A DNA stretch of 64,000 bases from Arthrobacter sp. ATA002. Lineage in GTDB: Bacteria; Actinomycetota; Actinomycetes; Actinomycetales; Micrococcaceae. The translations under genes and the position numbers were made by a program. Below the pieces are notes generated by a model that was given only the letters and a program-made list of their open reading frames with translations, did not search any database and was not told the origin of the DNA. The stretch spans positions 1,922,001-1,986,000 of the forward strand of contig NZ_CP114015.1 of NCBI RefSeq assembly GCF_026898095.1, in the 5' to 3' direction. Shown here in pieces: positions 605-55,154 of the stretch (position 1 is its first letter; each line of letters starts with the position of its first letter).

Positions 605-1623
605 CTAGGAGAACCGGCGCACCTGCGTCCATCCCGGGTCGGGATCGTGCCGGAGCGTGCCGCCGGCCGCCCGGGCCGCAGCCGAAACCGCCGCGAGCCC
701 GGCGGGGTCCTCCGAATCCGAGTAGTAGTGGAGCACCCGGGCACCGGCGGCGCTCTCATGGGCGACAAGGATTCCGGCAGCTCCGAGGGAGGAGGAGATG
801 GCCGCTTCGTGCCCCGGAGCGCCTCCAGGCCGGCCTGCGTCGGGAGACCGTTCTCTCCGCCGCTGTAGGGGAGGCGCACCCGGGTATGGAGGTCGAACGT
901 CGGATAGTCGATCCACCGCAGGGGCCGGCGCGCCGCAACCATGACAGGGCCGCCGTCCTGCGTCGTTCCGTTCAGCAGGACCCATCCGGCCGGTGCGGAG
1001 GCCGCGGCAGCGGTAACGGCGGCCAGGAGCTCGCCGGCGGCCACATCCGCCGCCGCGCCGGCGGCGGCCGGCTCGACGGCACCTATCCACCGGGTCACAC
1101 CGTCTTCGCCGAGAAGCCAGTCAAGGAGGAGGAAGCAGATTTGCCGGCTCCGGCCCTCGGCCACCGCGGTGAACAGCGGATGGTGGATGACGACGTCGAA
1201 ACGGCCCGTGCGGGAATCTTCCCGCAGACCGAAACGGGCGGAGCCCAGAGAAAAGCTGCGGCCGTCAATCTCGAGGCTCTGGCCCGCCACGCCGGGCACC
1301 GGCTGTCGGGCGGCGGCGAACTCCCATTCCCCGTCCGCGCGGGGAGCGCGCCGGAGCCAGAGTTCCGCGATCCGCCGCAGCACGGGATCGCCCTCGGAAC
1401 TGACGGCGAGGAGATGGCGGGAGGTGCGCCCCGGGGCCGTGTCCCACGCCAAGTCCGGATGCACGGCGGCGAGCCGTTCCTCCATCTCGGCGGGAAGGGA
1501 ACCCCAGTGGCCGGTCGCCGCGGCCGCACTGAACCGGGAGCCGGCGCCCGATGTCCACCACGTCCAGAAGTTGTCAATGTGCTGTTCCGGCCCCGCAGAG
1601 ACCCCGCGCCTGAAAATTCCCAT
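605..1623 (-). CDS. DUF695-like hypothetical protein (frameshifted in this sequence)
   Basis: A protein of about 339 residues once one missing base is allowed. The first 270 residues begin MGIFRRGVSAGPEQHIDNFW and read in one frame. After GLEALRG (near 811-817, a GCCCC run) the sense continues in the next frame with HEAAISSSLGAAGILVAHE and a C-terminal segment ending DPGWTQVRRFS, typical of the end of DUF695/RraB-like domains (...HYYSDSEDPAG...). The shift equals loss of one base. The stop of the corrected frame is at 605-607. Function is unknown. The family link is moderate confidence only, from the pattern of short conserved stretches rather than from a search. Confidence 0.6.
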
Positions 1624-1791
1624 GTCCGCCCTTTCCCGCCGCTGCCGTGTTCCGCCATGAACCTACCCCGGACAGTCCGGGAGACGCCGCCGGCCGCGGT
1701 ACCGGCGCGGCGGCAGCGGCGGCCATCCGCGCATGACCCGGGATGAAGGCCCGGCCGCTGCCGCACCGGCCCCTTTGCTAGGCTCGGCGGC

Positions 1792-2569
1792 ATGAAATGG
1801 GATCCCCGGAAGTACACACAGTTCTCCTCGCACCGTGACCGGCCGTTTTTGACCTCACGGCCCGCATCGCCGCTGATAATCCGCGCAGGGTTGCTGACCT
1901 GGGCTGCGGTCCGGGAACCCTGACTGCCGCGCTCGCCGCCCGCTGGCCCGGTGCGCAGGTCACCGGCGTCGACTCTTCGCAGGCAATGGTGGACCAGGCC
2001 AGGGCTCTGGAACTGGCACCGGACAACCTGGACTTTGTGCAGGCGGGCATTGAGGAGTGGGAGCCGCAGCCCGGCACCGATGTGGTGGTTTCCAACGCGG
2101 CCCTGCAGTGGGTGCCGGGCCACGCGGACATGATGCGCCGCTGGGCCAAGCAGCTGGACGCCGGTGCCTGGCTGGCCGTCCAGGTGCCGGGAAACTTGGG
2201 GCGCCTTCGCATGCCTTGATGCGGGAACTGGCGGCAAGCGCAGAATGGGCGGACAAGCTTGACGGCGTGCTGCGCCACAGCGACGCCGTGGATGAACCGG
2301 AGGACTACCTGGGACTGCTCATTGAAGCCGGCTTTGAGGCCGACGTGTGGGAGACGAGTTACCAGCAGATGCTGCACGGTGAGGACCCGGTGCTGGAATG
2401 GGTCCGCGGAACCGCGCTGCGGCCGGTCATTGACGCGTTGGACGCCGCAGACTTTGCGCGCTTCGAAACCGAATATGCGGCCCTGCTCCGCGAAGCCTAT
2501 CCGCAGCACTCCTGGGGAACAGTCTTCCCGTTCCGGCGTATTTTCATGGTGGGCCGGAAGCAGGGCTAA
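1792..2569 (+). CDS. tam: Trans-aconitate 2-methyltransferase (two frameshifts in this sequence)
   Basis: S-adenosylmethionine-dependent methyltransferase of the Tam family, which methylates trans-aconitate, a spontaneous inhibitor of the TCA enzyme aconitase. Read across two breaks, the protein runs MKWDPRKYTQFSSHRDRPF, the SAM-binding motif VADLGCGPGTLT, VVVSNAALQWVPGH, and ends FPFRRIFMVGRKQG. The first break lies in a T5 run at 1846-1850 and the second in a G4 run at 2198-2201; each is repaired by one added base. About 259 residues after repair, the usual length for the family. The gene stands alone, divergent from the gene before it and convergent with the permease after it. Sequencing error is the likely cause of the breaks. 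Confidence 0.8.
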
Positions 2570-2571
2570 GC

Positions 2572-3981: not shown

Positions 3982-4080
3982 GGCTGCACGCTCTCAGTTA
4001 GTCCGGCAGAGCCCCCTTGGAGCGTACGGCCGCCCTCGGCGCCGGTCAACGGACCGGCCCCCCGCGGCGCCGGCAGGCAC

Positions 4081-9182: not shown

Positions 9183-12101
<2,919 letters not shown>

Positions 12102-13655: not shown

Positions 13656-15672
13656 GTGGCAGATCCAGCAACATACCGGCCGAAGACGGGGGAGATCCCC
13701 ACCGCTCCCGGCGTTTACCGTTTCCGTGACGAGCACCGCCGGGTCATCTATGTCGGCAAGGCCAAAAATCTCCGGTCCCGCCTGAACTCCTACTTCGCCA
13801 ATCCGCGCGGCCTCATGCCTAAAACCCGGGCCATGGTGCACACCGCCGCCGGCGTGGAATGGACGGTGGTCGGCACCGAGCTGGAAGCCCTGCAGCTGGA
13901 ATACACCTGGATCAAGGAGTTCAACCCCCGGTTCAACATCATGTTCCGGGACGACAAGTCCTACCCCTACCTGGCCGTGACCATGGGGGAGAAGTACCCC
14001 CGCGCCCAGGTGATGCGCGGGGACCGGCGCAGGGACACCCGCTACTTCGGCCCGTTCTACCCGGCCAAGGCCATCCGGGAAACCCTGGACACCCTGCTGC
14101 GCGTCTTCCCGGTCCGCACCTGCAGCTCCGGGGTCTTCAAGCGCGCCGAACGCACCGGCCGCCCCTGCCTGCTGGGGTACATCGACAAGTGCTCCGCCCC
14201 CTGCGTGGGCCGGATCAGTCCGGAGGACCACCGGCAGCTGGCCGCCGAACTGTGCGACTTCATGGCCGGGGAGGGCAAGCGCTTCATCGGCACGCTCGAG
14301 AAGGAGATGCAGGCAGCCGTCGCCGAGCTGGACTATGAATCCGCTGCCCGGCTCCGTGACGACATCGCCGCCCTGCGCAAGGTCTTTGAACGCAACAACG
14401 TGGTGCTCAGCGAAGACACCGACGCCGACATTTTCGCCCTCGAGGAAGATGAGCTGGAAGCCTCGGCCCAGGTGTTCCACGTCCGCGCCGGACGCATCCG
14501 CGGCCAGCGCGGCTGGGTCGTCGAAAAGGTCGAAGACACGGACACCGCGGACCTGGTGGAACACCTGATCCAGCAGGTGTACGGCGAAGCCGGATCCACG
14601 GACCGCATTCCCCGCCAGGTGCTGGTCCCGGCGCTCCCGGCCAACGCGGAAGAACTGGGGCAGTGGCTCTCCGGGCTGCGCGGGGCCCATGTGGACCTCC
14701 GGGTGCCGCAGCGGGGGGACAAGAAAGCCCTGATGGAGACCGTCGCGCGCAACGCCGCCGACGCCCTGCGGCTGCACAAGAGCCGCCGGGCCGGCGACAT
14801 CACCACCCGCTCCGCCGCCCTCCAGGAACTGCAGGAGGCCCTCGACCTGCCCGTGGCGCTGCTGCGGATCGAGTGCTACGACATCTCCCATGTTTCCGGC
14901 ACCAACGTGGTGGCCTCCATGGTGGTGGCCGAGGACGGGCTCCCCAAAGTCGGACTACCGGAAGTTCTCGATCACCGGGGACGCCGCCCGCGACGACACC
15001 TCCGCCATGTACGACGTGATCTCCCGGCGCTTCCGCAACTACCTGGCCGAAAACGCCGATCCGGCGGCCGACCCCGCTGTCCGCCCGGAGGTTCCCGCGG
15101 AACTGCCCGCCGAACGCACCGGCACCGACGTCCAGCCGCTGACCGATACCCTGACCGCGGCTCCGCGCGCCAAGTTCGCCTATCCGCCCAACCTGGTCGT
15201 GGTCGACGGCGGCCAGCCCCAGGTAGCCGCAGCCTCCCGAGCCCTCGCGGACCTTGGCATCACCGACATCTACGTGGTGGGCCTGGCCAAGCGCCTGGAG
15301 GAAGTTTGGGTCCCGGACAGCGACTTCCCGGTGATCCTGCCGCGCGCCTCCGAAGCGCTTTTCCTGCTCCAGCGCATCCGGGACGAGGCGCACCGCTTTG
15401 CCATCACTTTCCACCGGCAAAAGCGGGCCAGGTCCATGACCGCTTCCCTGCTGGACGAGATTTCCGGCCTGGGACCGGCCAAGCGCGCGGCCCTGCTCAA
15501 GGAATTCGGCTCCGTCAAAAAGCTGCGGAATGCCTCCGTGGAGGAACTGCAGCGGGTCCCGGGCATCGGGCCGGCCCTCGCGGCGTCGGTCCACGCCCAG
15601 CTGGCGGAAAAGGGCGGGCAGCCCGCTGCCCCCGCCGTCAACATGACCACCGGCGAAATCATGGAAACTTAG
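13656..15672 (+). CDS. uvrC: UvrABC system protein C, excinuclease (frameshifted in this sequence)
   Basis: The nuclease that cuts on both sides of a lesion in nucleotide excision repair. The N-terminal GIY-YIG domain shows APGVYRFRD and [14 protein letters not shown]; a UVR motif ([17 protein letters not shown]) follows near residue 220; the RNase H-like C-terminal nuclease has [11 protein letters not shown] and VVVDGGQPQ; a helix-hairpin-helix pair [11 protein letters not shown] and [12 protein letters not shown] ends the protein. The frame changes at about 14945-14950 ([12 protein letters not shown]). The change is +1, fitting loss of two bases from AAGAAG or gain of one. Because the broken frame has no stop, it reads through into rapZ, a spurious fusion. 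GTG start. Confidence 0.92.
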
Positions 15673-15818
15673 CTAGGCTGGGTAATCGGCTTCTTCCCCT
15701 GCAGCCGCTGGCCTGCGCAGCATGCCCGGCACCGCTGCGCAGTAATTCACGGCAGAACACACCGGCGCGGGCCGCAGTGCCCGGCGCCGGACAAGACCCT
15801 AAGGATGGGACGACGGAC

Positions 15819-16718
15819 ATGAAGGAACAGGACGCGCTGACCCCGGTCAAGCCCGCCGAGTCGGAGCTGCTGGTGGTCACCGGCATGTCCGGCGCCGGAC
15901 GCAGCACGGCCGCCAATGCCCTCGAAGACCACGGCTGGTACGTGGTGGAGAACCTGCCGCCCATGATGCTGGGCACCCTGACCGAGCTGGTGTCCCGGAT
16001 GCCGCATTCCATCCCCCGGCTGGCGGTGGTCATCGACGTCCGCAGCAAGGAGCTCTTCCAGGACATCAGGGAGGCACTGAGCGGACTCCGGTCGGCCGGC
16101 GTTTCCTACCGGCTGCTGTTCCTGGACGCCGAGGATGAAACCCTGGTGCGCCGCTTTGAGCAGGGTCGGCGTCCCCACCCGTTGCAGGAGGACGGCAGCA
16201 TCCTGGACGGCATCGCCGCTGAGCGGGACGTGCTGAAGGAACTGCGCGCGTCCTCCGACGTCGTCGTGGATACGTCCAAACTGAACGTGCATGCGCTGGC
16301 AACCACGATCACGGAACTTTTCACCGAATCCGGTCCGATCGTGCTTCGGCTCAACGTGATGAGCTTCGGGTTCAAGTACGGGCTGCCCGTGGACGCGAAC
16401 TACGTGGCCGACGTCCGCTTCATTCCCAACCCGCACTGGGTGCCGCAGCTGCGCCCGCACACCGGACTGGATGAGGACGTGAAGGACTACGTCCTCGACG
16501 CGCACGGGACCCGCGACTTCCTGGACCGGTATGTCGACGCCCTGGAGCCGGTGATTGACGGCTACCGGCGCGAAAACAAGCACTACGCCACCATCGCCGT
16601 CGGCTGCACCGGCGGCAAGCACCGCTCCGTGGCCGTGACCGAGGAACTGTCCAAGCGCCTGGCGCAGCTGCCGCATGTGACGGTCAGCGCGCACCACCGT
16701 GACCTTGGGCGCGAATAG
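15819..16718 (+). CDS. rapZ: RNase adapter protein RapZ (nucleotide-binding)
   Basis: A P-loop protein of 299 residues. Walker A is GMSGAGRST (with Arg in place of the usual Lys, as is common in actinobacterial members), Walker B-like [10 protein letters not shown], a [19 protein letters not shown] block, and the C-terminal motif [10 protein letters not shown] that binds a small ligand in E. coli RapZ. In enterobacteria RapZ binds GlmY/GlmZ RNAs with RNase E; in actinobacteria this neighbourhood is conserved but the role is less clear. The ATG follows AAGGATGGGACGACGG. It abuts yvcK with no gap. The frame is intact; an apparent fusion to uvrC comes only from the uvrC frameshift. Confidence 0.93.
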
Positions 16719-18855: not shown

Positions 18856-19481
18856 GTGAACGAGTACACACTGCCGGAACTGCCGTACGACTACGCGGCA
18901 CTCGAGCCGAACATCTCGGCCCGCATCATGGAGCTGCACCACGACAAGCACCACGCAACGTATGTTGCCGGTGCCAACACGGCGCTGGCGCAGATGGCCG
19001 AAGCCCGGGAAAAGGGCGACTTCGCCACCATTCCGAAGCTGTCCAAGGATCTGGCGTTCCACGTTGGCGGCCACGTCAACCACAGCATTTTCTGGAACAA
19101 CCTTTCCCCGAAGGCGGCGACAAGCCGGTTGGCGAGCTTGCTGCAGCCATCGACGACTTCTTCGGTTCCTTCGATGCGTTCCGCGGCCAGTTCACCGCCG
19201 CGGCCACGTCGCTGCAGGGCTCCGGCTGGGCACTCCTGGCCTACGAGCCGCTGGGAAAGAACCTTGTTATCGAGCAGCTGTACGACCAGCAGGGCAACGT
19301 CCCCGTTGGCACCATTCCGCTGCTGATGCTGGACATGTGGGAGCACGCCTTCTACCTGGACTACGTCAACGTGAAGGCTGACTACGTCAAGGCCTTCTGG
19401 AACATCGTCAACTGGGCCGATGTGGCCACCCGCTTCGAGGCTGCCCGCACCGGCGCCCACACGCTGGTGCTCCCGGCCTAA
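18856..19481 (+). CDS. sodA: Superoxide dismutase, Mn/Fe type (frameshifted in this sequence)
   Basis: Dismutates superoxide to peroxide and oxygen. The N-terminal half shows [13 protein letters not shown] and [17 protein letters not shown] with the first two metal histidines. After a break at 19111-19118 (AAGGCGG, one base missing) the sense continues in the next frame with [25 protein letters not shown], and the metal-binding [12 protein letters not shown]. About 209 residues after repair, full length for the family. The GTG start at 18856 follows ACAGGAGG, a strong ribosome site. It lies between whiA and gap, a common place in Micrococcaceae. Metal choice is not certain from motifs alone. 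Confidence 0.92.
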
Positions 19482-20791: not shown

Positions 20792-22017
20792 ATGACAGTC
20801 AAGACACTCGAGGAACTGATCAGCGACGGCGTCGACGGCCGGTATGTGCTGGTCCGCTCGGATTTGAACGTGCCGCTGGACAACGGCCGGGTGGCCGATG
20901 ACGGGCGTATCCGCGCGTCCATCCCGACGATCGGGAAACTGGTGGAGCACGGGGCCAAGGTGATCGTCATGGCGCACCTGGGCCGGCCGAAGGGAACGCC
21001 GGACGAAAAGTACTCCCTGCGCCCGGCAGCGGACCGGCTGGACGAGCTCGCGCCGTTCGCGGTCGAGTTCGCCGAAGACGTGGTGGGTGAAAGCGCGCAT
21101 GAGCTGGCATCCTCGCTGGCCGCCGGTTCCGTCCTGGTGCTGCAGAACATTCGGTTCGATCCGCGGGAAACGTCCAAGGACGACGCCGAACGCCTGGCGC
21201 TGGCGCGTGAACTGGCCGGCCTGACCGGAAACAGCGGGGCCTACGTGGACGACGCGTTCGGTGCGGTGCACCGCCGGCACGCCAGCGTGTACGACATCGC
21301 CGAGATCCTGCCGGCCTACCAGGGCGATCTGGTGCACACCGAGGTGAAGGTGCTCAAGCGGCTGACCGAGAATCCCGAGCAGCCCTATGTGGTGGTCCTC
21401 GGCGGCTCGAAAGTCAGCGACAAGCTGGCCGTGATCGAAAACCTCATGGACCGCGCCGACTACCTCCTGGTGGGCGGCGGCATGGTGTACACCTTCCTCG
21501 CCGCGCAGGGATGCAAGGTGGGGGCTTCGCTGCTGGAATCCGACCAGATCGAGAACGTCAAGGGCTACCTCAGCCGTGCGAAGGAGATGGGCTGCGAGTT
21601 CGTGCTGCCGACCGACATCGTGGTTGCCGACGCGTTCGCCGCCGATGCCGACGTTGATGTGGTTCCTGCGGATTCCATGGAGAACAGCCGCTTCGGCGTG
21701 TCGGGCATCGGGCTGGACATCGGCCCTGATTCCGCAGCCGCCTTCGCGGAGAAAATCGGATCCGGCAAAACGATCTTCTGGAACGGGCCCATGGGCGTGT
21801 TCGAATTTGACGCGTTCGCCAACGGCACCCGCACGGTCGCTCAGGCGCTGAAGGACTCCGCCGGCTTCTCCGTGGTTGGCGGCGGCGACTCCGCCGCTGC
21901 CGTCCGGAAGCTTGGTTTCAGCGACAGCGACTTCGGCCATATTTCCACCGGCGGCGGCGCTTCCTGGAATACCTCGAAGGCAAGAAACTTCCGGGGCTGA
22001 CCGTCCTGGACCAGTAA
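20792..22017 (+). CDS. pgk: Phosphoglycerate kinase (frameshift near the 3' end)
   Basis: Transfers phosphate from 1,3-bisphosphoglycerate to ADP. Motifs: [30 protein letters not shown]-type [50 protein letters not shown] and [12 protein letters not shown]. The ending should read [20 protein letters not shown], but a base is missing at 21961-21966 (GCTTCCTGG), so the uncorrected frame ends early at 22000 with an out-of-frame tail. The corrected stop is at 22015-22017. About 408 residues. The ATG at 20792 follows gap by 62 bp. Confidence 0.95.
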
Positions 22018-22125: not shown

Positions 22126-22942
22126 ATGATGACCACCTCGACCAACGGCAAGTTTGACCGGACACCCCTGATCGCGGGCAACTGGAAGATGAACATGGAC
22201 CACGTCCAGGGCATCACCCTGCTGCAAAAGCTGGCGTGGACGTTGAAGGACGCCCAGCACGACTACAACCGGGTGGAGGCAGCGGTCTTCCCTCCTTCAC
22301 CGACCTGCGCAGCGTGCAGACCCTGGTGCGGGGCGACAAGCTTGACCTCGAATACGGCGCGCAGGACCTCTCACCGGAGGACTCGGCGCCTACACCGGCG
22401 ACATTTCCGGTGCCTTCCTGTCCAAGCTTGGCTGCAAGTACGTCCTGGTGGGCCACAGCGAGCGGCGCACCGTCCACGGTGAAACCGATGAAATGCTGAA
22501 CAAAAAGCTGAAGGCTGCCTACCGCAACAACCTTGTGCCGGTGCTGTGCGTGGGGGAGGGCCTGGTGGTGCGCCAGGCCGGCCGGCATGTGGACCACACC
22601 CTGGAGCAGGTGCGCAGGGACCTCGAGGGGCTCGACGCCGAGCAGGTATCGGCCCTCGTCATCGCGTACGAGCCCATCTGGGCCATCGGCACCGGTGAGG
22701 TTGCCGGCCCCGGCGATGCCCAGGAAATGTGCGCAGCCATCCGCAGCGAAATCGCGGATCTGTACGACGGCGCCGTTGCCGCCAAGACGCGGCTGCTCTA
22801 CGGAGGATCGGTGAAGGCAGCGAATGCGGCGAGCATTCTGAAGCAGCGCGACGTCGACGGCGTGCTGGTGGGCGGTGCCAGTTTGGATGTGGCCGAGTTT
22901 GCTAATATTGTCAGGTTCGAACAACACCTGGTGACCGACTGA
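22126..22942 (+). CDS. tpiA: Triose-phosphate isomerase (two frameshifts in this sequence)
   Basis: Interconverts dihydroxyacetone phosphate and glyceraldehyde 3-phosphate. It starts with [14 protein letters not shown], carrying the catalytic asparagine and lysine. The reading frame breaks at 22289-22296 ([16 protein letters not shown]) and again at 22384-22387 ([17 protein letters not shown]). Both are repaired by one added base. The last part holds the catalytic histidine (VLVGHSERR), the catalytic glutamate ([12 protein letters not shown]) and the phosphate loop [12 protein letters not shown]. About 272 residues after repair. An ATGATG start allows 22126 or 22129. Confidence 0.95.
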
Positions 22943-28328: not shown

Positions 28329-29443
28329 CTAGGCCTCTTTCGCGGTATCCAGTGCGGTCTGAACAGTCTCCAGGAGCTCTCCCCAGCTGACCACGAACTT
28401 GTCCAGGCCTTCGGTTTCGAGCTGCTCGACGACATCGTTGTAGGAAATGCCGAGCCCGTCCAACGCATCCAGGACGGCGCCGGACTCCGCGTACGTGCCG
28501 GTGACGGTATCGCCGGTGACTTCGCCGTGGTCCGCCGTGGCGTTCAGGGTCTTCTCCGGCATGGTGTTGACCGTGTGCGGTGCAACGAGGCCGGTGACGT
28601 ACAGGGTGTCCGGCAGCGCCGGGTCCTTGACGCCGGTGGAGGCCCAGAGGGACGCTGCGCGTTTGCCCCGGCCGCGGCGAGGACGGACCAGCGCTCGGTG
28701 GCGAACTGTTCCTCGAACACCTGGTAGGCCAGGCGGGCGTTGGCCAGACCGGCCTTGCCCTTGAGTGCCTGCGCTTCGCCGGTGCCGATGCCGTCCAGGC
28801 GCTTATCGATTTCAGCGTCGACGCGGGAGACGAAGAACGAGGCCACGGAGTGGATCTTGGACAGGTCGTGGCCGTTTTCCTTAGCCTGTTCGATGCCCGC
28901 CATGTACGCGTTGATGACCTCGCGGTAGCGCTCCAGCGAGAAGATCAGCGTGACGTTGACGCTGATGCCCGCGGCCAGGGTCGCGGTGATGGCCGGCAGG
29001 CCTTCCCTGGTGGCCGGGATCTTGATCAGCACGTTGTAGCGGCCAACCTTGTCGAACAGCTCGCGGGCTTCCTTGATGGTGCCCTCGGTGTCGCGGGACA
29101 GGCGGGGGTCGACCTCGATGGACACGCGGCCGTCCACGCCGTGCGTGGCCTCGGCCACTGGGGCGAAGACGTCGCAGGCCTGGAGGACGTCGTCGGTGGT
29201 GATCTCGAAAACGGCTTTGTCCACGTCCGCGCCTGAGCGGGCAAGCTGCTGCACCTGCGCGGCGTAGGACTCGCCGTTGGCCAAAGCGGCGGCGAAGATG
29301 CTCGGGTTGGTGGTGACGCCAACGACGTTCTTGGTGTCAATGAGGTCCTTGAGGGAACCCGAGACGATGCGTTCGCGGGACAGGTCGTCCAGCCAAATGG
29401 ATACGCCGGCTTCGGAAAGCTCAGCCGTAGGGGTGGAAGTCAT
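28329..29443 (-). CDS. tal: Transaldolase (frameshifted in this sequence)
   Basis: Transfers a dihydroxyacetone unit in the non-oxidative pentose phosphate pathway through a Schiff-base lysine. The N-terminal part has [12 protein letters not shown] and [15 protein letters not shown]; the catalytic lysine is in [17 protein letters not shown] near residue 140; [15 protein letters not shown] follows. A base is missing at 28660-28665 (GGCAAACGC), after which the sense continues with [13 protein letters not shown] and ends [15 protein letters not shown]...TAKEA. About 371 residues, the normal size of the actinobacterial long type. It is between tkt and pgi in the operon. Confidence 0.94.
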
Positions 29444-32090: not shown

Positions 32091-33034
32091 GTGACAACCC
32101 AGCAAGCCCCCGCCGAACTTCCGGTGTATACCGGCAAGATGACGGCAGGCCGTAAGCTCCGGGCTTATGTGGCTCTCACCAAGCCGCGCGTCATCGAACT
32201 GTTGCTGGTGACAACCCTGCCAACCATGATCTTCGCCGAGCGCGGACTTCCGGGCCTGTGGCTCATTGTCGTCACCATGGTGGGCGGCGCCCTCGCAGCA
32301 GGCAGCGCCGGGGCGTTCAACTGCTACATCGACCGCGACATGGACAAACTGATGAAGCGGACCAAGAGCCGGCCGCTGGTGACCGGTGAGGTGTCTCCGC
32401 GGGAAGCCCTGGTGTTTGCCTGGGCCCTGGGCATCGTGTCAATTGCGCTGCTGTGGTTCGGGGCCAACCCGCTCACCGGTGTTCTCGGCCTCGGCGCGAT
32501 CCTGCTGTACGTAGTCTTCTACACCCTGATCCTCAAGCGCCGCACCACCCAGAACATCGTGTGGGGCGGCATTGCCGGGTGCATGCCGGTGCTCATCGCA
32601 TGGGCAGCCGTCACCAACAAGGTGGAATGGCCGGCGATCATCCTGTTCCTGATCATCTTCCTGTGGACGCCGCCGCACTACTGGCCGTTGTCCATGAAGT
32701 ACGGCGAAGACTACCGCAATGCTTCGGTGCCGATGCTGGGAGCGGTTGCCGGTGCCAAGCTGGTTTCGGTCCAGGTTGTTCTGTACGCCTACGCGACAGT
32801 GGCCTGCTCCTCCTGCTGGTTCCTGTGGGCGGGGCCGGCTGGGTCTACACTGGCGCCGCCGTCCTGAGCGGCGCCTGGTTCCTTTCCGAAACCCACCGCC
32901 TGCACAGCCGGGCGCAGCACGAAAACGTCACCGACAAGACCGCCATGAAGGTCTTCCACGGTTCCATCAGCTACCTCACCATCCTGTTCCTGGCGCTGGC
33001 CATCGACCCGTTCGTGGGCGGGCCGCTGCTGTAA
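32091..33034 (+). CDS. ctaB: Protoheme IX farnesyltransferase, heme O synthase (frameshifted)
   Basis: Membrane prenyltransferase attaching farnesyl to heme B, making heme O for aa3-type oxidase. It has multiple hydrophobic helices and the two prenyl-diphosphate binding regions: [21 protein letters not shown] (N/D-x3-D) near residue 80, and [21 protein letters not shown] in the second half. A base is lost near 32805-32813 (TGCTCCTCC); afterward the sense continues [21 protein letters not shown] and ends [15 protein letters not shown]. About 314 residues after repair. GTG start. ctaA lies 700 bp away on the opposite strand, convergent. Confidence 0.93.
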
Positions 33035-34814: not shown

Positions 34815-35547
34815 TTGAACCATCGGACGGCAGCGAGGCCGCCCAGGACTGTCCACGCCAGCAGAATCAGCATGGCGGGGATATTGAAAGCTGCATCAAT
34901 CAGTGCCGAGCGCATGGCTTCTCCCAGTGCGGCAGAGGGCAGGATCTCCACAAAAGGTTGCATGATGTCGGGCAGATTGCCGGCCGGGATGATGATGCCG
35001 CCCACCGCTGCCAACAGTATCCACAGCAGGTTGGTCACGGCCAGTGTCGCTTCCGGACGGGCGGTCCCTGCCACGAGAAGGCCCAGGGCAGTGAAGGCGG
35101 CCGCCCCGAGCAGCAGCGAGACCAGGGCCACCGGAATGCCGGTCCAGGCCGGCTGCCAGCCGAAGAACGCGGCAACAATGCTCACCACGGCCACCTGGAT
35201 GGCGAGGACGGCGACGACGGCGATTCCCTTTCCTGCGATCAGCCCGGCCTTGCCCAGCGGGGTGGTGGACAGGAAGCGCAGGACGCCGTAGCGGCGGTCG
35301 AAGCCGGTTGCGATGCCCTGGCCGGTGAAGGCGGTGGACATGGCGCACAGGGCAAGGATGCCCGGGGTCGCCATGTTCACCCGGGAGGTGCCGTAGCCGT
35401 CCAGGATGGGTGTCACGCACAGGGCGACCAGCGCCATCAGCGGCAGGAACACGGCGAGGATCAGCTGTTCGCCGTTGCGCAGCATGGTGACCGCCTCGTA
35501 GCGGCCCTGATTCAGGATGCGGACGGGCAGGAGGCGGGTGCGCTCAT
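34805..35547 (-). CDS. ABC-2 type permease (start probably frameshifted)
   Basis: Membrane half of an exporter whose ATPase is the next gene upstream. It has about six hydrophobic segments (LILAVFLPLMALVALCV; ILALCAMSTAFTGQGI; IAVVAVLAIQVAVVSIVAAFFG; and others) and ABC-2-like TTPLGKAGLIAGK. No plausible start lies in the sense frame near its first residues. An ATG at 35545-35547, overlapping the ATPase stop as ATGA, would be in frame if one base were lost at about 35537-35543; I adopt that. About 247 residues. Ends WFKWS, with ctaA starting inside it. Cargo unknown; linked by position to heme A synthesis. Confidence 0.82.
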
Positions 35548-40331: not shown

Positions 40332-41119
40332 ATGTCTACTCTTGAGATCAAGGATCTTCACGTCAGCATTGAGACCGAACAGGGTGTCAAGAAGCAGATC
40401 CTGAAGGGCGTCAGCCTGACCATCAACACCGGTGAGACCCACGCCATCATGGGCCCCAACGGCTCCGGCAAGTCGACCCTGGCCTCCACGATCGCCGGCC
40501 ACCCGCGCTACACCGTCGACAGCGGCTCCATCACGCTGGACGGCGCCGATGTCCTGGACATGAGCGTGGACGAGCGTGCCCGCGCCGGCCTGTTCCTGGC
40601 CATGCAGTACCCGGTGGAGGTTCCCGGCGTCACGATGACCAACTTCCTGCGCACCGCCAAGACCGCGCTGGACGGCGAAGCCCCTCGCTGCGCCACTGGA
40701 CCAAGGACGTCAAGTCCGCCATGAGCCAGCTGCGCATCGACGCCGACTTCGCTTCGCGCAACGTCAACGAAGGCTTCTCCGGCGGCGAGAAGAAGCGCGT
40801 GGAGATCCTGCAGCTCGAACTCTTCCACCCGAAGTTCGCCATCCTCGATGAGACGGACTCCGGTCTCGACGTCGACGCGCTGAAGGTTGTTTCCGAAGGC
40901 GTGAACCGCGAGCACGCCAAGGGCGAAATGGGTACGCTGCTGATCACCCACTACACCCGCATCCTGCGCTACATTAAGCCGGACTTCGTTCACGTGTTCG
41001 TTGACGGCCGCATTGCCGAGCAGGGCGGCCCCGAGCTGGCCGACCGCCTGGAAGAAGAAGGCTACGACCGCTTCACGGGTGCCAACGCGACGGCCGCCGG
41101 CGCGCTGAACCAGGCGTAA
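40332..41119 (+). CDS. sufC: Fe-S cluster assembly ATPase SufC (frameshifted in this sequence)
   Basis: ABC-type ATPase of SufBCD. It starts [18 protein letters not shown] and has Walker [11 protein letters not shown] near residue 38. The frame breaks at 40680-40685 (GAAGCCCC, one base lost) after ALDGEAP, then continues [19 protein letters not shown], signature [16 protein letters not shown], Walker [13 protein letters not shown], and switch histidine [10 protein letters not shown]. About 262 residues repaired, the normal SufC length. An AAGGAGAAAGC site lies upstream. It has no membrane partner, as expected. Confidence 0.95.
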
Positions 41120-42277: not shown

Positions 42278-43017
42278 TCATGACCGGCCTTTCACAGCCT
42301 GTGTGCCTGCCGGCGCCAGGGCCAGCGCCCGGTAAGCTGCCAGCGCGGCATCCGGTGCGCCGTCGAACACGATGCCCTCGTCCTCCACGACCAGGACCCG
42401 GCCGGCGTCCCCGGCGAAATCCAAGTCGTGCGTGGTGTAGATGATCTGCTGCGGGAGCTCCCGAAAGATGCTCCGCAGCCGTGCGGTGTTGCGCAGGTCC
42501 AGCAGGGTGCTGGGTTCATCGGCCACCAGGACGTCCGGCTGGACGGCCAGCACGGAGGCCAGCGCCATCAGCTGGCGCTCCCCGCCGGAAAGGTCGTAAA
42601 TGCTGCGGTCGGCCAGGTGCAACAGGCCAAGGTCCGCCAGCCGCGCCTCCGCGGAGGCGCGGCGCTCCGGGCGGCTGCGGATGGTCGCGCGGAGGGAGAG
42701 CTCGACGTCGTCCCGGCCGGTGGGCATGACCAGCTGGGAAAGCGGATCGGTAAAGACGAAGCCCACGCGGCGCCGCACCCGGCTGCCGCGGGACACGGTG
42801 TCCAGCCCGTCCACGGTCACGGTTCCGGTATCCGGTGCCAGCAGTCCGTTGAGCAGCTTCAGGAGGGTGGATTTGCCCGACCCGTTGGCGCCGATCACCG
42901 CAATCCGCGCTTCATTGAGTTCCAGGGTTAACGGACGCAGGATCGGCTCAGCGGCGGCGGGGGACGACGGGCCGGGGAGCGGAGCACCGACACATCCTGC
43001 AGGCATATTCGGACCAT
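42278..43017 (-). CDS. bioM: Biotin ECF transporter ATPase (EcfA/BioM), start frameshifted
   Basis: ATPase of the ECF importer: Walker A GANGSGKST, signature LSGGERQLMALASVL, Walker B VLVADEPSTLLD, switch histidine IIYTTHDLDFAG. Sense N-terminus would be MVRICLQDVSV from the ATG at 43015-43017, which overlaps the bioY stop (TGATG). One lost base between about 42957 and 42990 separates that start from the rest (EPILRPLTLELNEARIAV). About 247 residues. Order bioY-bioM-bioN with tight coupling. Confidence 0.85.
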
Positions 43018-43866: not shown

Positions 43867-45463
43867 GTGATTTCCGTATCTAATCTCGAGCTCCGTGCCG
43901 GCGCACGTTTGCTCATGGAAGCGGTCTCATTCCGTGTTGACAAAGGCGACAAAATCGGACTGGTGGGACGCAACGGTGCGGGTAAGACCACTCTGACCAA
44001 GGTCCTGGCAGGAGGCGCTGCCGGCCGGCGGGCACGTCAAGCGCACCGGCGAAATCGGCTACCTTCCGCAGGACCCGCGGACTCCCGACATGGAGCAGCT
44101 GGGGCGCGACCGGATCCTCTCGGCCCGCGGACTGGATAAAGTCTCGGCCCAGCTCAAGAAATGCCAGGATGAGATGGCCAGCGACGACCCCAAGGTTTCG
44201 CAAAAGGCCATGAACCGGTATGACCGGCTGGAGGCGGAGTTCCTGTCCGCCGGCGGGTACGCGGCGGAATCCGAGGCGGCCGCCATCACCGCCAACCTGG
44301 CCCTGCCTGACCGGCTGCTGAACCAGCCCCTGAGCACCCTCTCCGGCGGTCAGCGCCGCCGCGTGGAGCTGGCCCGCATCCTCTATTCCGACGCCGAAAC
44401 CATGCTCCTCGATGAGCCCACCAACCACCTCGACGCCGACTCGATAGCGTGGCTGCGGGAATTTTTGAAGAACCACTCCGGCGGCCTGATCGTGATCAGC
44501 CACGACACCGAACTGCTGGAGGCAACGGTCAACAAGGTCTTCTCACTGGACGCCAACCGCGCCACCATTGATATCTACAACATGGACTGGAAGCGCTATA
44601 AGGTCCAGCGCGAGACGGACGAGCGCGCACGGAAGCGTGAGCGCGCCAACACGGAAAAGAAGGCCGGAATCCTGCTGGCCCAGGCCAACAAGATGAAGGC
44701 CCGTGCCTCCGGCGCCTCGGCCGCACAGAGCATGCTCAAGCGCGTGGACCGCCTCATGGGCGGCCTCGACGCCGTCCGCGCCACGGACCGGGTGGCCGCT
44801 CTGCGGTTCCCGGATCCGGCGCCCTGCGGGAAGACGCCGCTGATGGCCGAGGGGCTTAGTAAGAGCTACGGCTCGCTGGAGATCTTTACTGACGTGGACC
44901 TGGCCATCGACCGCGGCTCCAAGGTGGTCATCCTGGGTCTGAACGGCGCCGGCAAGACCACGCTGCTGCGGATGCTGGCAGGAGTGGACACCCCCGACAC
45001 CGGAAAGCTCATCCCGGGCCACGGATTGAAGGTGGGCTACTACGCCCAGGAGCACGAGACCCTGGATACGGAACGGACCGTGCTGGAAAACATGCGCTCC
45101 TCCGCGCCGGACATGGACGATGCCGAAGTGCGCAGCGTCCTTGGGTCCTTTATGTTCAGCGGCGACGACGTCGAGAAGAAGGCCGGGGTCCTTTCCGGCG
45201 GTGAGAAAACCCGGCTTGCCCTGGCCACCATCGTGGCGTCCTCGGCCAACGTCCTGCTGCTGGACGAGCCCACCAACAACCTGGACCCGGCTTCCCGCGC
45301 GGAAATCCTGGGCGCCCTGAGCAGCTACTCGGGTGCCGTGGTGATGGTGAGCCACGATGAGGGTGCCGTGGCGGCGCTGAATCCGGAGCGTGTGGTGCTG
45401 CTGCCCGACGGCGACGAGGACCACTGGAACGAGGACTACCTGGACTTGGTGACGCTGGCGTAG
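43867..45463 (+). CDS. ABC-F family ATPase (frameshifted in this sequence)
   Basis: Soluble tandem ABC ATPase acting on ribosomes (translation factor or antibiotic protection class). Domain 1: Walker A GRNGAGKTT near residue 40, signature LSGGQRRRVELARI, Walker B TMLLDEPTNHLDADS. A charged linker follows (RERANTEKKAGILLAQANKMKARASG), then domain 2: GLNGAGKTT, LSGGEKTRLALA, VLLLDEPTNNLDP. A break at 44009-44014 moves the frame by +1 (VLA|EALPAGGHVKRTGEIGYLP), fitting loss of two bases from GGCGAGG or gain of one. About 532 residues. -10 TAGACT at 43804-43809 with a weak -35 TTATAC 17 bp upstream. Confidence 0.9.
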
Positions 45464-45760: not shown

Positions 45761-46937
45761 ATGGGTGCTATGCACAGTGCCTCAAACCCCTACTCACCCG
45801 GTGCCGGACGCCGGCCATTCGAACTGGCCGGCAGAACAGCCTTGATCAATGATTTTGACCTCCTGATTTCCCGGGCGGCCGCCGGGCGTACGGACCGGGG
45901 GATCGTGCTGCATGGACTGCACGGAGTGGGCAAAACCGTCCTGCTCACCGAATTCCGGCGCCGGGCGGAAGAGGCCGGTTTCCTCGTGGTGTCGCTGGAG
46001 GGCCGGGATGCGGAGGGCGGGCCGAAGGCGGTCCGGGCCAAGCTCGCCAGGGGACTGCTGCAGGCGGGCAGGAAGGCCAGCTCCCGCGCGAAGACGCCGG
46101 CCCTCGCCGCGGCGCTGGGCACCATCGCTTCCTTGCCGCCGGCCTGCAGGTGAGCGGGATCGATGTGGGGGTGGGAGCGCGGCACGGCCGCGGCGACTCG
46201 GGTGCCTTTGCCGTGGACCTGGAAGAAACGGTGGAGGACACGGCCGTTGCCCTGGGCGAACGTAAATCGGCGCTGATGCTGGTGGTGGACGAGCTGCAGA
46301 ACCTGGATCCGGGGCTGTTGTCGGCGCTGCTGGCGGTCCAGCACCAGGCCGGGCAGCGGGACTGGCCCTTCTATGTGGTTGCCGCCGGGCTGCCGAACCT
46401 GCCGGCTGCCTTGAACGCATCCCAACGCTATGCCGAGGGGCTGTTCACCTATCGGAGCGTGGGCGCGCTGGACCGGGAGGACTCCGCTGCGGCGTTGACT
46501 GCCCCGGCCGCGGCGGCGGGGTCTCCTATGATCCCGAGGCGCTGGACCTGCTGCTCAATGCCGCCGGAGGCTACCCCTACTTCCTTCAGGAGTACGGATC
46601 CGCTGCCTGGGAATCCGCCCCGCGTCAGCACATCACCGCACAGGACGCCCGGGTCGCCGTCGAAATCGGCCGTGCACAGCTGGACCAGGGGTTCTTTCCC
46701 ATGCGGTGGCGCCGCGCCACGAAGGCTGAACGGGAGTTCCTCCGGCTCATGGCGGTGGACGGTGCAGCGGGATCCGGGACCGCCACGCTGGCCGCCAGGG
46801 CAGGCAAGAAGATGACGTCCATGACCATGACCCGCGGGTCCCTGATCCGCAAGGGCATCATTTATGCCCCCTCGCTGGGACAGGTGTCCTTCACCGTTCC
46901 GGGCATGGCCGACTACGTGCGGCGGGTCACCGCCTAA
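45761..46937 (+). CDS. AAA-type ATP-binding protein (two frameshifts in this sequence)
   Basis: A single-domain P-loop ATPase of about 392 residues, similar to the Orc1/Cdc6-like AAA_16 proteins common in Micrococcaceae. It starts MGAMHSASNPYSPGAG and has Walker A LHGLHGVGKTVLL near residue 55 and Walker B LMLVVDELQNLDP near 175, then WPFYVVAAGLPNLP (sensor 1) and a C-terminal winged helix (FLRLMAVDG...GKKMTSMTMTRGSLIRKGIIY). Breaks at 46131-46136 and 46518-46521 (a G4 run) each need one added base. The start follows AAGG within AT-rich DNA (TATACT at 45723-45728). No partner gene is adjacent; function unknown. Confidence 0.75.
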
Positions 46938-47100: not shown

Positions 47101-48990
47101 TTGAACCCCGCATGCCGTCTCGGTAGGCTTGATATTCTGGTCCGGTCCGGACCGGTCCGGGCCCGCGTAGGCTATCAATCCAAGGACGGCACCGTTATTC
47201 CTGCCTCATCTTCCCTTTCTTTTCGCCGCTGCCTGGCCGCAGGCGCCCTGTCGCTGGGACTGGTCCTGTCAGGATGTGCAGGGCAGACCGGGGCCGCCGA
47301 GGGGACCGGCTCTCCGGACACTCCGGCCGTCTCGCTGGCCCAGGCCCGGGAAATAACGGGTGTCTTTGACGGAGGCGCGGGCGCGGCGGCGCTGGCTGCC
47401 AGCGCCGCGTTCTTTACCTCCAGCCCCGCAGCAGTGATCCTAGCCGCGCCACCGTCAGATCCCGCCGCCGCTTCCGCGGAACCCTCAGCCCCGGAGGCGG
47501 CGGCTTTCGGCCAGGCATCGGCGGCCGCCGCCGGGCTGGGCGTTCCCCTGCTGGTGGCCGAACCCGGGCTTGAGGATCAGATAAGCGCCGAACTGGACCG
47601 GCTGGGCACCGGTGCCGTGATCCTTTACGGCGATCCCAACGGCGGCTGGCCGGCGTCAGTGGGGAAGCGGACCCGGGTGCCCGGGCCGGAAGACGCCGAG
47701 AGTTTCCGTGACGCGCTGGGACTGGACGCGCTGCCCGCCGCAGCTGAACCGCTGGTAACCCAGATTGCGGCGATGAACCGCGGAACCGGCCTCGCCGTTC
47801 CCGGGCTGGACGTCCCCGCGCCGCAAGGCAGTGAACCTGCCACAGAGCCCGCCCCTGAGCCGGCCGGCTCCGAGCCAGCCGCCCAGCCGGCCAGCCCGGA
47901 CAAAACCCCGGTGGGGCGCGATGCCGCGGAGGAGCTCCCGGAGTTCAGCGCCGCGGAGGAAGAGAGCGGCGCCGTCGTACTGGCGACGGAGGATCCGGCG
48001 TCGGCCGCGGCGGTGGCCACCGCACGTGCTGCCGGCGCGGAAGTCCGCATGGTCGACACCGCGGATCCCCGTGCCGACGCAGAGGTCATTGAGGTGCTGC
48101 GCAACCACCGGGAGGGCGGCATCTACGCAGCCGGGGACGCCTTCGGCGGCGAGGAGAATTTCACGGCGCAAAGCGACGTTGCCCTCAATGCGTCGGAATT
48201 GCCCGGCGGCGGCCAGACAGTTTTCCCTGGACGGCGGATGGTTGCGCTCTACGGGCACCCCAGCGGCGGGAGCCTCGGCGTGCTCGGCGAACAGGGCATG
48301 GCTGAAACCCTTCAGCGGGCCAAGGAGACAGCCGCCCAGTATCAGCCCCACAGCGAGGAGCCGGTGATCCCGGCCCTGGAAATCATTACGACCGTTGCCA
48401 GCTCCGAAGCCGGGGGCGACGGCGACTTCTCCGATGAAACAGCGGTGGCGGACCTGCTGCCCTGGATCGAGGCGGCCGAAGCCGCCGGGGTCTACGTGGT
48501 CCTGGATTTGCAGCCCGGATACAGCACTTTCCTGGAGCAGGCCATCCGTTACGAGGAGCTGCTTAAGTACCCCCATGTGGGGCTGGCCCTGGATGCGGAG
48601 TGGCGGCTGGCGCCCGGGCAGCGTCATTTGGAGCAGATCGGATCCGTGGACGCTGCCGAAGTCAACGAGACTGCGGCGTGGCTCGCGGGCCTGACCCGGG
48701 AGAACGTCCTGCCGCAGAAGCTCTTCATGCTGCACCAGTTCAGTCTCTCGATGATCCACAACCGGGACCAGCTGGACGTTAGCCATGGCGAACTCGCAGT
48801 AAGCCTGCATGCCGACGGGCACGGCACACCCGGTGAGAAGCTGGACACCTGGAACGTCCTGCGTGCAGGGCTGCAGCCCGAGATCTGGCCGGGCTGGAAG
48901 AACTTCTACGACGAAGACACTCCCATGCTGACTCCGGAGCAGACCTATGGACAGGTCGAGCCCAAGCCCTGGTTCATTTCCTACCAGTAA
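47101..48990 (+). CDS. Secreted lipoprotein of unknown function, no ordinary start codon
   Basis: A large predicted lipoprotein: SLSFRRCLAAGALSLGLVLSGC is a lipoprotein signal with lipobox LSGC, so the mature part is anchored outside. Residues to ~190 (VILAAPPS...AAAAGLGVPLLVAEPG...GTGAVILYGDPN) resemble a decayed cell-wall-binding repeat 2 fold. An acidic Pro/Ala-rich linker (EPATEPAPEPAGSEP) follows. The C-terminal half (YVVLDLQPGYSTFLEQA; VGLALDAEWRL; LPQKLFMLHQFSL) looks like a TIM-barrel hydrolase. The only canonical in-frame start is TTG 47101, far upstream of the signal. AAGGACGG at about 47184 sits before GTTATT, so an ATT start or a hidden frame error is possible. Confidence 0.7.
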   Translation: MNPACRLGRLDILVRSGPVRARVGYQSKDGTVIPASSSLSFRRCLAAGALSLGLVLSGCAGQTGAAEGTGSPDTPAVSLAQAREITGVFDGGAGAAALAASAAFFTSSPAAVILAAPPSDPAAASAEPSAPEAAAFGQASAAAAGLGVPLLVAEPGLEDQISAELDRLGTGAVILYGDPNGGWPASVGKRTRVPGPEDAESFRDALGLDALPAAAEPLVTQIAAMNRGTGLAVPGLDVPAPQGSEPATEPAPEPAGSEPAAQPASPDKTPVGRDAAEELPEFSAAEEESGAVVLATEDPASAAAVATARAAGAEVRMVDTADPRADAEVIEVLRNHREGGIYAAGDAFGGEENFTAQSDVALNASELPGGGQTVFPGRRMVALYGHPSGGSLGVLGEQGMAETLQRAKETAAQYQPHSEEPVIPALEIITTVASSEAGGDGDFSDETAVADLLPWIEAAEAAGVYVVLDLQPGYSTFLEQAIRYEELLKYPHVGLALDAEWRLAPGQRHLEQIGSVDAAEVNETAAWLAGLTRENVLPQKLFMLHQFSLSMIHNRDQLDVSHGELAVSLHADGHGTPGEKLDTWNVLRAGLQPEIWPGWKNFYDEDTPMLTPEQTYGQVEPKPWFISYQ

Positions 48991-50757: not shown

Positions 50758-51488
50758 GTGCAGAACAACACCACCGCGCCGTCCACCGGCCGCAGCGTCC
50801 TAATTACCGGCGGCAACCGCGGCATCGGCCTCGCCATCGCCCGTGCGTTCCTTGCCAACGGGGACCAAGTAGCGATTACCTACCGCAGCGGGGACGTACC
50901 CGAGGGCATGCTCGGAGTTAAGGCCGACGTGACCGATATGGCCTCCGTTGACGCTGCTTTCACTGAAGTGGAGGCCGTCCACGGCCCCGTGGAGGTCCTG
51001 GTGGCCAATGCCGGCATCACCCGCGACACCCTGCTGCTGCGGATGAGCGAAGACGACTTCACCGACGTCGTGGACACCAACCTCACCGGCGCGTTCCGGG
51101 TCATCAAGCGTGCATCAAAGGGCATGATCAAGCTGCGCCGGGGCCGGGTTGTCCTCATCTCCTCCGTGGTGGGGCTGTACGGTTCACCGGGGCAGATCAA
51201 CTATGCCGCCTCCAAGGCCGGCCTGGTTGGCATTGCGCGGTCCCTGACAAGGAACTCGGCTCGCGGAACATCACCGCCAACGTGGTGGCTCCGGGGTTCA
51301 TCAGCACGGACATGACAAAGGCCCTGCCCGAAGACACGCAAAAGAACTACCTCTCTTCCATCCCGGCCAACCGCTTTGCCGAGCCGGAAGAAGTGGCCAA
51401 CGTGGTGCGGTGGATTGCCGGCCCCGAAGCGTCGTACATTTCCGGCGCCGTCATCCCCGTGGACGGCGGACTGGGAATGGGCCACTAA
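50758..51488 (+). CDS. fabG: 3-oxoacyl-ACP reductase FabG (frameshifted in this sequence)
   Basis: NADPH-dependent ketoreductase of fatty-acid synthesis. It has VLITGGNRGIGLAIA (coenzyme site), LVANAGITRDTLLLRM, the catalytic serine region VVLISSVVGLYGSPGQINYAASKAGL (Ser, Tyr-x3-Lys). A base is missing at 51245-51248 (CTGACAAGG): LTKELGSRNITANVVAPGFISTDMT continues in the next frame, ending AVIPVDGGLGMGH. About 243 residues repaired. GTG start at 50758 after AAGGAAATTT. The second SDR follows 163 bp later in the same direction, like mabA-inhA. Confidence 0.92.
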
Positions 51489-51651
51489 ACGCGCCCGGTT
51501 TCCCGCCGGAGCGGACAGTCCCGCCGCCAAGGTCTCCGGGGGATTCGTTGGAGGTTTCCACCACTTCGCGAAGCCCCCGGGACTGGCAGGATGGGAGGAG
51601 TTGCGCAAAACTTTGGACACTTTCTCCAAAACACCTCACAAAGGAGCACCC

Positions 51652-52416: not shown

Positions 52417-52418
52417 TC

Positions 52419-53395
52419 CTACAGCTTCACGAAGTGCCGCACCACGTCCAGGTTGGGCAGGTTCAGCACGGCACCGGCGGCGGCCTGCACTGCCGGCTTG
52501 GCATTGAATGCCACGCCCAGGGCGGCCGCCGCCAGCATGTCCAGATCGTTGGCTCCGTCGCCCACCGCGATCGTGTGCCGCATGTCGATGCCCAGGCCGG
52601 CTGCCCACTCGCGCAGCGAACGGGCCTTGGCCGCGCGGTCCACCACCGGGCCCTCCACGGTGCCGGTTAGCACGCCGTCCGCGGTGCCGAGCAGGTTTGC
52701 CCTGGCATGGGTCAGCTGCAGGCTCTCGGCCAGCGGTGCCAGGACCTGGCTGAACCCGCCGGACACAACGGCCACGGCGTGGCCGTCAGCCTGGAACTCC
52801 TTGACCAGCACCTCGGCGCCTTCGGAGAGCTCAATGCGCGCGCCCACCTCTCCGATGACCGACACGGGCAGCCCGGCCAGCGCTTTCACGCGGTGGTGCA
52901 GGCTTTGCGTAAAGTCCAGTTCCCCGCGCATGGCCGCCTCGGTTACCGCGGCAACCTCGGCCTCGCGTCCGGCGTGGGCCGCGAGCAGCTCAATGACTTC
53001 CTGCTTGATCAGGGTGGAATCCACATCCATGACCAGCAGCTTCCGCCCCGGTTCCAGCAGGGAAGAAGGGACGACGGCGCTGGCAGCTCCTGCGCGTCCT
53101 CGCCCAGGGCGGACGCTGCCGCGGTGACGGCCAGGCGCAGTGCCTGGATCCCGCCGTCGTACTCCACCATCAGTTTGGTGACGGCGTATCCGTTGCCCGC
53201 GGCGTTCTCCAATGCCATGATCCGGCCGCCCGCCACGCGCACCGCCTGCTGGACGGCCGAAAGGTACGCATCGGTGAGGGCGCGTCCATAGCTGACGACA
53301 CCGTAGTCGGGCGTGCCGCCGGACAGCGCCGCGGCAAGGTCCAGCATTTGCGTGCCGGGTTTCGTGCCGGCGCTGGCGTGGTTCTGGTCGGGCAT
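52419..53395 (-). CDS. serB: Phosphoserine phosphatase SerB (frameshifted in this sequence)
   Basis: Makes serine by removing phosphate from phosphoserine. The catalytic part has motif I LLVMDVDSTLIKQEV (both aspartates), motif II AVVSGGFSQVLAP, Lys in AKARSLREWA and motif IV IAVGDGANDLDMLAAAALGVAF. N-terminal ~110 residues form a regulatory, ACT-like domain (ALTDAYLSAVQQAVRVAGGRIMALE). One base is missing at 53056-53064, between LAPSSLLP and EPGRKLLVMDVD. About 325 residues. I chose ATG 53395 (MPDQNHAS); 53473 is possible. It converges on the SDR gene. Confidence 0.92.
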
Positions 53396-53527
53396 TTGCG
53401 TATCCGTTTCTGCAGGCGGGGCTGGAACTGCGGGTGGTGTCTGGTGGGCTTGGGGCAGGTAGGGTGCCGGCACAGCGCGGCGCCGCGTTTAGCCATCGGC
53501 CCTTTCTTTAGCCTAATGTCTAGTGCT

Positions 53528-54312
53528 ATGAGTGATGTTCTTGAATTTGCTGCCGTAAGTGTCGTTCGCGGCGGCAAGAGCCTGTTGGATGCCGTGGACT
53601 GGCAGGTCAAGGAGGGGGAGCGCTGGGTCATCATGGGACCCAACGGCGCGGGGAAGACCACTCTGCTCCAGATAGCCGGCGGGCGCATGCACCCAACCCG
53701 CGGCGTCGCCGGAATCCTGGAGGAAGTCCTCGGAGCCGTTGATGTGTTTGAACTGCGGCCGCGGATCGGCCTGGCCTCCGCCGCCCTGGCCAGCCAAATC
53801 CCGGGGCATGAAACCGTGCTCAACGTGGTCCTGACAGCCTCCTACGGCATGACGGGCCGCTGGCGGGAAAAGTACGAAAAACTCGACGAACGCCGGGCCT
53901 TCCGCCTGCTGCACGACTGGGGCATGTCCACCTTCATGAACCGCAGCTTTGCCTCCCTCAGTGAGGGCGAACGCAAGCGGGTGCAGATTGCCCGTGCCCT
54001 GATGACCGATCCGGAGCTGCTGCTCCTGGACGAACCGGCGGCCGGACTCGACCTGGCCGGCCGCGAAGACCTGGTGGCGCGGCTGGCCGGCTTGGCCCGG
54101 ACGAGGAAGCTCCCGCCATGGTCCTGGTCACCCACCATCTGGAAGAAGTGCCCCCGGGCTTCACCCACGCGCTGCTGCTGCGCGACGGCGGCGTGGTTGC
54201 CTCCGGACCGATCGAGGATGTCTTTACCGAGGAAAACCTCAGCGCCGCCTTTGACCTGCCCCTGGATGTGCAGCACGACGGCGGACGCTGGTCCGCCACC
54301 GCGCGCCGCTGA
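53528..54312 (+). CDS. ABC transporter ATP-binding protein (frameshifted in this sequence)
   Basis: Soluble ATPase of about 261 residues: Walker A GPNGAGKTT near residue 36, an LRPRIGLASAAL Q-loop area, signature LSEGERKRVQIARALM, Walker B LLLLDEPAAGLDLAG. A base is missing at 54110-54118; afterward the switch histidine region MVLVTHHLEEVPPGFTHALLL and a ~40-residue tail follow. It resembles YlmA/ModF-like ATPases that lack an encoded permease. No permease is adjacent, but a TauE/SafE transporter starts 28 bp later; that family does not use ATP. Role unknown. Confidence 0.85.
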
Positions 54313-54339
54313 CCTGCCGCGCAGCACGCACCATCGCCT

Positions 54340-55154
54340 GTGGACATTTTTCATGACGCCATAGTCTTTGTCGCCGGACTCTGGGCGGGAACCATCAACG
54401 CCGTCGTCGGCTCCGGGACGCTGGTTACCTTCCCCGTCCTGGTGGCCCTGGGGTACGCGCCGGTGGCCGCCACGATTTCCAATGCCATGGGCCTGATCGC
54501 GGGAAATCTGGCCGGCTCCTGGGGGTACCGCAGGAACTGGCCGGGCTGAAGTCCACGCTGCTGAAACTGCTGCCGGCGTCGATTCTGGGCGGCATCACCG
54601 GTGCGGCACTGCTGCTCCACCTGCCGGAATCCGTATTCGGCACGGTGGCGCCGTACCTGGTGGTGGCGGCGCTGCTCTTTGTCGTCTTCCAACCCAAGCT
54701 GCAGTCATGGGTGCGGCGGCGGGCGGAGGCTGCAGCCGCTGCCCCGCCCGTCGCCGGCGGTTCGGGGGATTCAGCGGTCCTGCCGAAACCGCCGCGCCGG
54801 CATGGCGTGATCCTCGTCATCCTGATCTACTTGGCGGGGGTTTACGGAGGCTATTTCGTGGCCGCCCAGGGAATCCTGCTGGTGGGCATCCTCGGCGTTT
54901 TCCTGCAGGGCACCATCCAGAACGCGAACGCGATGAAGAACATCCTGGTGCTGGGCGTGAACATCGTGGCCGCTGTTTCCTACCTGATTTTCGCGTTTGA
55001 CCGGATTGTGTGGCCTGTGGTGGCCCTCATTGCGGTGAGTTCCCTGATCGGTGGATTCCTGGGTGCCGCCGTCGGCCGGCGGCTGTCTCCGGTGGTGCTG
55101 CGCACCGTCATCGTGCTGCTGGGCCTGCTCGCCCTGTGGAATATGGTGTTCTGA
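54340..55154 (+). CDS. TauE/SafE-family sulfite/anion exporter (frameshifted in this sequence)
   Basis: Membrane protein with eight hydrophobic helices. It starts DIFHDAIVFVAGLWAGTINAVVGSGTLVTFPVL, the family's first repeat (A-G-x-x-N-x-x-x-G-x-G). A base is missing at 54531-54536 (GCAGGAAC), after WGYRR; the sense continues LAGLKSTLLKLLPASILGGITGAALL. The second repeat reads YGGYFVAAQGILLVGILGVFL. About 271 residues. GTG start. It overlaps nothing; the RNA methyltransferase start follows its stop directly. Substrate likely sulfite or another small anion, from the family only. Confidence 0.88.

Follow-up and report, generated by a model that had tools for sequence, protein, structure and literature searches.

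Why should so many conserved genes, lying close together in one bacterial genome, be broken in frame? The stretch that raises this question, called the window here, is 64,000 nucleotides long (bases 1,922,001-1,986,000; G+C about 67%) and comes from an Arthrobacter genome of one contig and 3,904,590 bases (3.90 Mb). An earlier note on it counted twenty-two frame breaks in eighteen genes, nearly all of them repaired by one added base, and blamed an uncorrected long-read or draft sequence rather than decay. We have very little doubt that the breaks are residual indel errors of one or two bases, mostly losses beside short homopolymers, and that accurate reads were not used to correct the assembly. 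The feature is almost certainly an ordinary sequencing artefact and not real biology. Bases would have been lost mostly beside short homopolymers and left in an assembly made from long reads alone, with no correction by accurate ones, and the living cell would have intact genes.

A search with transketolase assigns the genome to Arthrobacter, where A. gandavensis JCM 13316 and Arthrobacter sp. APC 3897 are nearest (94% protein identity in the best segment). When a closer relative was sought among 28 other members of the genus, the best was only 91% identical in tkt DNA. We took a 68.5 kb syntenic region from each of five relatives (G007, G011, G003, G004 and G001), and these regions align across most of the window. 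The estimated completeness of the genome is 94.24, against 99-100 (rounded) in the 28 congeners searched, which agrees with a reading in terms of indel errors. An rRNA operon (G000:C1:497-5711) lies about 0.5 kb from the start of the contig, and this may reflect a contig cut or closed at a repeat.

Frame breaks in the window

The relatives' genes were predicted with a gene finder that ranks open reading frames (ORFs) by third-position G+C, and the net frame changes of the window DNA were then traced along each gene. Calls made against a single reference are unreliable close to the ends of genes and in genes of weak conservation, so we counted only breaks whose sign is agreed by several relatives and which lie within 3-98.5% of the gene. 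In the window a consensus call means the same sign in at least four of the five relatives. The comparison covers 51 gene clusters, some of them on the wrong strand or merged.

This test recovers 20 of the 22 sites, 18 with a net change of -1 and two of +1, and every break that it calls was already on the earlier list (Table 1). The other two are found by targeted alignment. Site 811-817 lies outside the consensus test; its gene is held by three of the five relatives, and the break is placed at 814-815 in all three. The permease site at 35537-35543 was missed because the gene finder sometimes picks the wrong strand. At the gene level, where three relatives were used, the break is placed at 35531 when the 278-aa ORFs of G011 and G003 serve as references, and against the 247-aa ORF of G007 it falls in the first codons and gives no call. 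From these alignments the permease break appears to hold, but less firmly than the one at 811-817.

All twenty-two breaks are therefore present in the sequence. Against the relatives, 20 sites are one base short and those in uvrC and ABC-F are two bases short (net +1), as had been claimed. The positions first given also stand to within about 10 bp at 18 of the 20 consensus sites, the exceptions being bioM and serB, whose places are uncertain. The bioM call is spread over 42944-42978, in a poorly alignable stretch where local alignment is messy, and the serB call is displaced by about 20-40 bp from the position first given and, with G011, was made on an ORF of the opposite strand. The earlier note had proposed comparison with a relative at each site. 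None of the five has a gap at the window sites that can be read (the bioM stretch is unreadable), and so the relatives compared are not seen to share the breaks.

Table 1. Sites in the window where the reading frame is broken, with the number of relatives agreeing
Gene	Position in window	Strand	Change and support
Gene with relatives of 339-392 aa (earlier called DUF695-like)	811-817	-	one base short; 3/3 relatives holding the gene, local alignment
tam	1842-1851	+	one base short; 4/5 relatives
tam	2197-2201	+	one base short; 4/5 relatives
uvrC	14944-14950	+	two bases short; 5/5 relatives
sodA	19106-19118	+	one base short; 5/5 relatives
pgk	21960-21966	+	one base short; 5/5 relatives
tpiA	22289-22296	+	one base short; 5/5 relatives
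tpiA	22384-22387	+	one base short; 5/5 relatives
zwf	25726-25736	-	one base short; 5/5 relatives
zwf	25811-25817	-	one base short; 5/5 relatives
tal	28649-28665	-	one base short; 4/5 relatives
ctaB	32805-32813	+	one base short; 5/5 relatives
ABC-2 permease, gene start	35531-35543	-	one base short; gap against 5/5 relatives
sufC	40680-40685	+	one base short; 5/5 relatives
bioM-like ATPase	42944-42990	-	one base short; 5/5 relatives by net frame; place uncertain
ABC-F ATPase	44009-44014	+	two bases short; 5/5 relatives
AAA ATPase	46131-46136	+	one base short; 5/5 relatives
AAA ATPase	46502-46521	+	one base short; 5/5 relatives; position spread over 18 bp
SDR (fabG-like)	51245-51248	+	one base short; 5/5 relatives
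HAD phosphatase (serB-like)	53056-53094	-	one base short; 4/5 relatives, at 53086-53094; place uncertain
ABC ATPase, near 3' end	54090-54118	+	one base short; 5/5 relatives
TauE/SafE permease	54530-54536	+	one base short; 4/5 relatives

With the relatives themselves as targets, breaks at three of four references number 0, 0, 2, 3 and 0 in G007, G011, G003, G004 and G001, and at four of four they number 0, 0, 0, 1 and 0. The window, run on five choices of four references, gives 19-20 breaks at three of four and 15-18 at four of four.

The gene names were checked on the intact copies of G011. There tam, tpiA, zwf, tal, ctaB, sufC and ABC-F score above the NCBIfam cut-off, while sodA, pgk and the bioM-like ATPase hit their families with scores below it; pgk is above Pfam's cut-off on the window's own ORF. 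The identity of uvrC is supported by Pfam, and AAA, SDR/fabG, HAD/serB, TauE, the ABC-2 permease and the ABC ATPase are placed at the level of a Pfam domain only. The name DUF695-like is not borne out: three G011 ORFs at that place matched nothing.

Two of the genes illustrate what the breaks do to annotation. After the uvrC break the ORF at 13656-16718 (+; 1020 aa) continues in the frame of rapZ, and Pfam finds a truncated UvrC domain together with RapZ within this single ORF. This is a false fusion caused by the break, and automatic annotation could report it. The sufC gene is split across ORFs 40332-40724 and 40721-41119, whose halves match ABC_tran 1-77 and 97-135, the second below Pfam's cut-off.

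ARAGORN also calls a tRNA-Pro(cgg) at 47814-47900 (-), inside a 629-aa ORF without a Pfam match. This call is probably spurious, because no such tRNA turns up in the eight stretches taken from four relatives, which were picked so as to cover the syntenic position.

Rate and spectrum of breaks beyond the window

The breaks are not special to the window. A 464 kb block, made of the window and 200 kb on each side, was compared with G007, G003 and G011. Over 255 kb of shared coding DNA, all three references agree on 104 breaks, of which 18 fall inside the window, and pairs of references give 4.1-4.7 breaks per 10 kb. When G007, G003 and G011 are the targets there are 5, 19 and 6 breaks in 284-288 kb, or 0.18, 0.67 and 0.21 per 10 kb. 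Elsewhere in the genome, nine 20-kb stretches near rRNA operons, read against G007 alone, hold 30 breaks in 88.7 kb of coding DNA, found in seven of the nine stretches and in 23 of 76 genes. A test against one reference, run with a coverage filter slightly laxer than here, has a noise level of 0.65-0.93 per 10 kb, so about 6-8 of these 30 may be noise.

The low background of agreed indels in the control relatives, itself partly alignment noise, lends some weight to a mixture that overlaps with our explanation: mostly errors, with a few real pseudogenes or strain-specific indels among them. The weakly conserved sites (bioM, serB and 811-817) are less sure and point the same way. However, the one- and two-base losses of the window, judged collectively and not site by site, match the kind that dominates the whole block. 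We think such a mixture unlikely, if well worth bearing in mind.

A strain that is really losing its genes through frameshift mutations would account for frames that are broken in the sequence as given. However, pgk, tpiA, zwf and sufC, which serve central metabolism and iron-sulphur assembly, are affected, and the toll in the block is what random placement by length would produce: 75 broken genes against 76.6 expected among 204, counting only genes conserved in the three relatives. The kind of break argues against decay as well. Among 148 breaks agreed by at least two relatives, we kept the 125 with one agreed gap and omitted 23 that are not cleanly placed. One-base losses make up 107 of the 125, and the rest are 9 of net -2, 5 of net +1 and 4 of other kinds, so small indels (net -1, -2 or +1) dominate with 121 of 125.

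The losses depend on run length. With runs in G007's genes as denominators, and a few losses read against G003, G/C losses per 1000 runs are 0.31, 0.27, 1.49, 2.29 and 32.26 for lengths one to five. At length five 14 of 434 runs are affected, about 100 times the per-run rate of length one. The A/T losses per 1000 runs are 0.32, 0.36, 1.72 and 7.81 for lengths one to four. Among the longer runs, G/C runs of six lost 0 of 25, A/T runs of five 0 of 110 and A/T runs of six 1 of 35, and for 51 of the 107 losses the corresponding run in the relative has a length of one. In the genome's own sequence, 79 of the 107 lie next to a run of at least three and 47 next to one of at least four; among 20,000 coding places drawn at random the shares are 23% and 5.9%. 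In a census of runs of at least three, long runs are not clearly depleted in this genome.

A stricter homopolymer test, made on the window only and requiring flanks conserved in at least three relatives, gives 9 length changes in 11,706 runs: 2 affect runs of five and the other 7 affect runs of 1-3. The corresponding counts for the five relatives are 0, 2, 1, 0 and 1 changes in 9,832-10,597 runs. The window exceeds these controls, but with so few changes no spectrum can be drawn up. The breaks were also searched for a methylation-like motif; the top eight words of each length mostly contain runs (CCCC, CCCCG, CTCCCC and CGGGGA are top words), and we claim no motif.

Comparable cases have been described. 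The Kastor paper (PMC12007338) reports a long-read draft with fewer than 2000 indel errors, in which correction brought pseudogenes from 23.3% to 5.6% and completeness from 92.2 to 99.7%; the deletions are tied to homopolymers of 2-8, mostly 4-5. That draft is like this genome in its homopolymer-linked deletions, many broken genes and lowered completeness, but most of its deletions are in A/T runs, whereas in this genome more of the losses fall in G/C (70 of 107). The report on Thermus thermophilus TMY (PMC8601142) describes a PacBio-only, high-G+C genome with numerous frameshifted proteins, whose differences from a new sequence are mostly single-nucleotide deletions. It shares high G+C and one-base deletions with our case, but there the platform and the corrected sequence are known. 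The Homopolish paper (PMC8011154) states that systematic nanopore homopolymer indels shift reading frames, and that some polishing steps reduce insertions and increase deletions. Frame-shifting homopolymer indels are common to those nanopore errors and to this genome, a likeness in the type of error.

The rRNA operons as an untranslated control

Ribosomal RNA is not translated, and its copies within one genome are normally near identical. Comparing these copies is the most telling test. All five genomes examined contain six matches to SSU and six to LSU. Indel variation among the copies affects 9 SSU and 35 LSU alignment columns in the window's genome, against 0 in G003, G007 and G009 and 3 + 5 in G001. 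Substitution columns number 5 SSU and 28 LSU, against 0-4 and 1-5 in the relatives; some of this substitution variation is probably real, and the remaining LSU variation may be real too where it falls in stretches with substitutions.

We call a column private when a single copy differs both from the other five in its genome and from every copy in the four relatives. The six operons have 29 private single-copy indel columns (11 losses and 18 insertions), whereas G003, G007 and G009 have 0, 0 and 0 and G001 has 8. Ten of the 11 losses are in runs of 3 to 5. Insertions exceed losses here, the opposite of what the genes show, and this excess may come from harder polishing of repeats. The 8 private columns of G001 (loci L104-L161 in part) may reflect the same problem in a milder form; across the region syntenic to the window, G001 has 0 agreed frame breaks.

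Sequence error explains private indels in conserved rRNA, and neither recoding nor the decay of protein genes does. Copies within one genome differ by indels at columns that are ungapped in four relatives, which decay of genes does not lead one to expect. The earlier note was right to set decay aside: the number of conserved genes hit fits random placement by length, the losses track homopolymers and the rRNA copies disagree too. We regard decay as highly improbable.

Some ciliates read through frame breaks by programmed frameshifting. A cell of that kind would fit with the good conservation of the proteins beside the breaks, since 15 gene rows compared with G011 have an agreed break and in 13 of these the best segment is 86-100% identical in protein. 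However, the breaks have no common sequence beyond short runs, a shift site is not seen in any relative (the bioM stretch being unreadable), and untranslated rRNA carries the same kind of indel. We find programmed frameshifting even harder to credit than decay. Least credible of all is a hypermutator in which the DNA of the strain, including that for rRNA, would truly have lost these bases and the ribosome would tolerate frame slips.

What the breaks mean for this genome

We believe, then, that residual sequencing error is the explanation. The evidence supports the part of the earlier claim that called the sequence uncorrected; that the reads were long ones we infer from the single contig and the type of error.

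The importance of this result is for data quality only. At about 4 breaks per 10 kb of shared coding DNA, and with more than a third of the conserved genes of the block split (75 of 204), the gene calls of this genome are untrustworthy until it is resequenced. Absences, pseudogenes and odd fusions called from it, such as the uvrC-rapZ ORF, are not credible. The matter is weightier if the genome represents its species in the collection, as the collection's description implies. For such records a comparison of the rRNA copies within one genome is a quick test.
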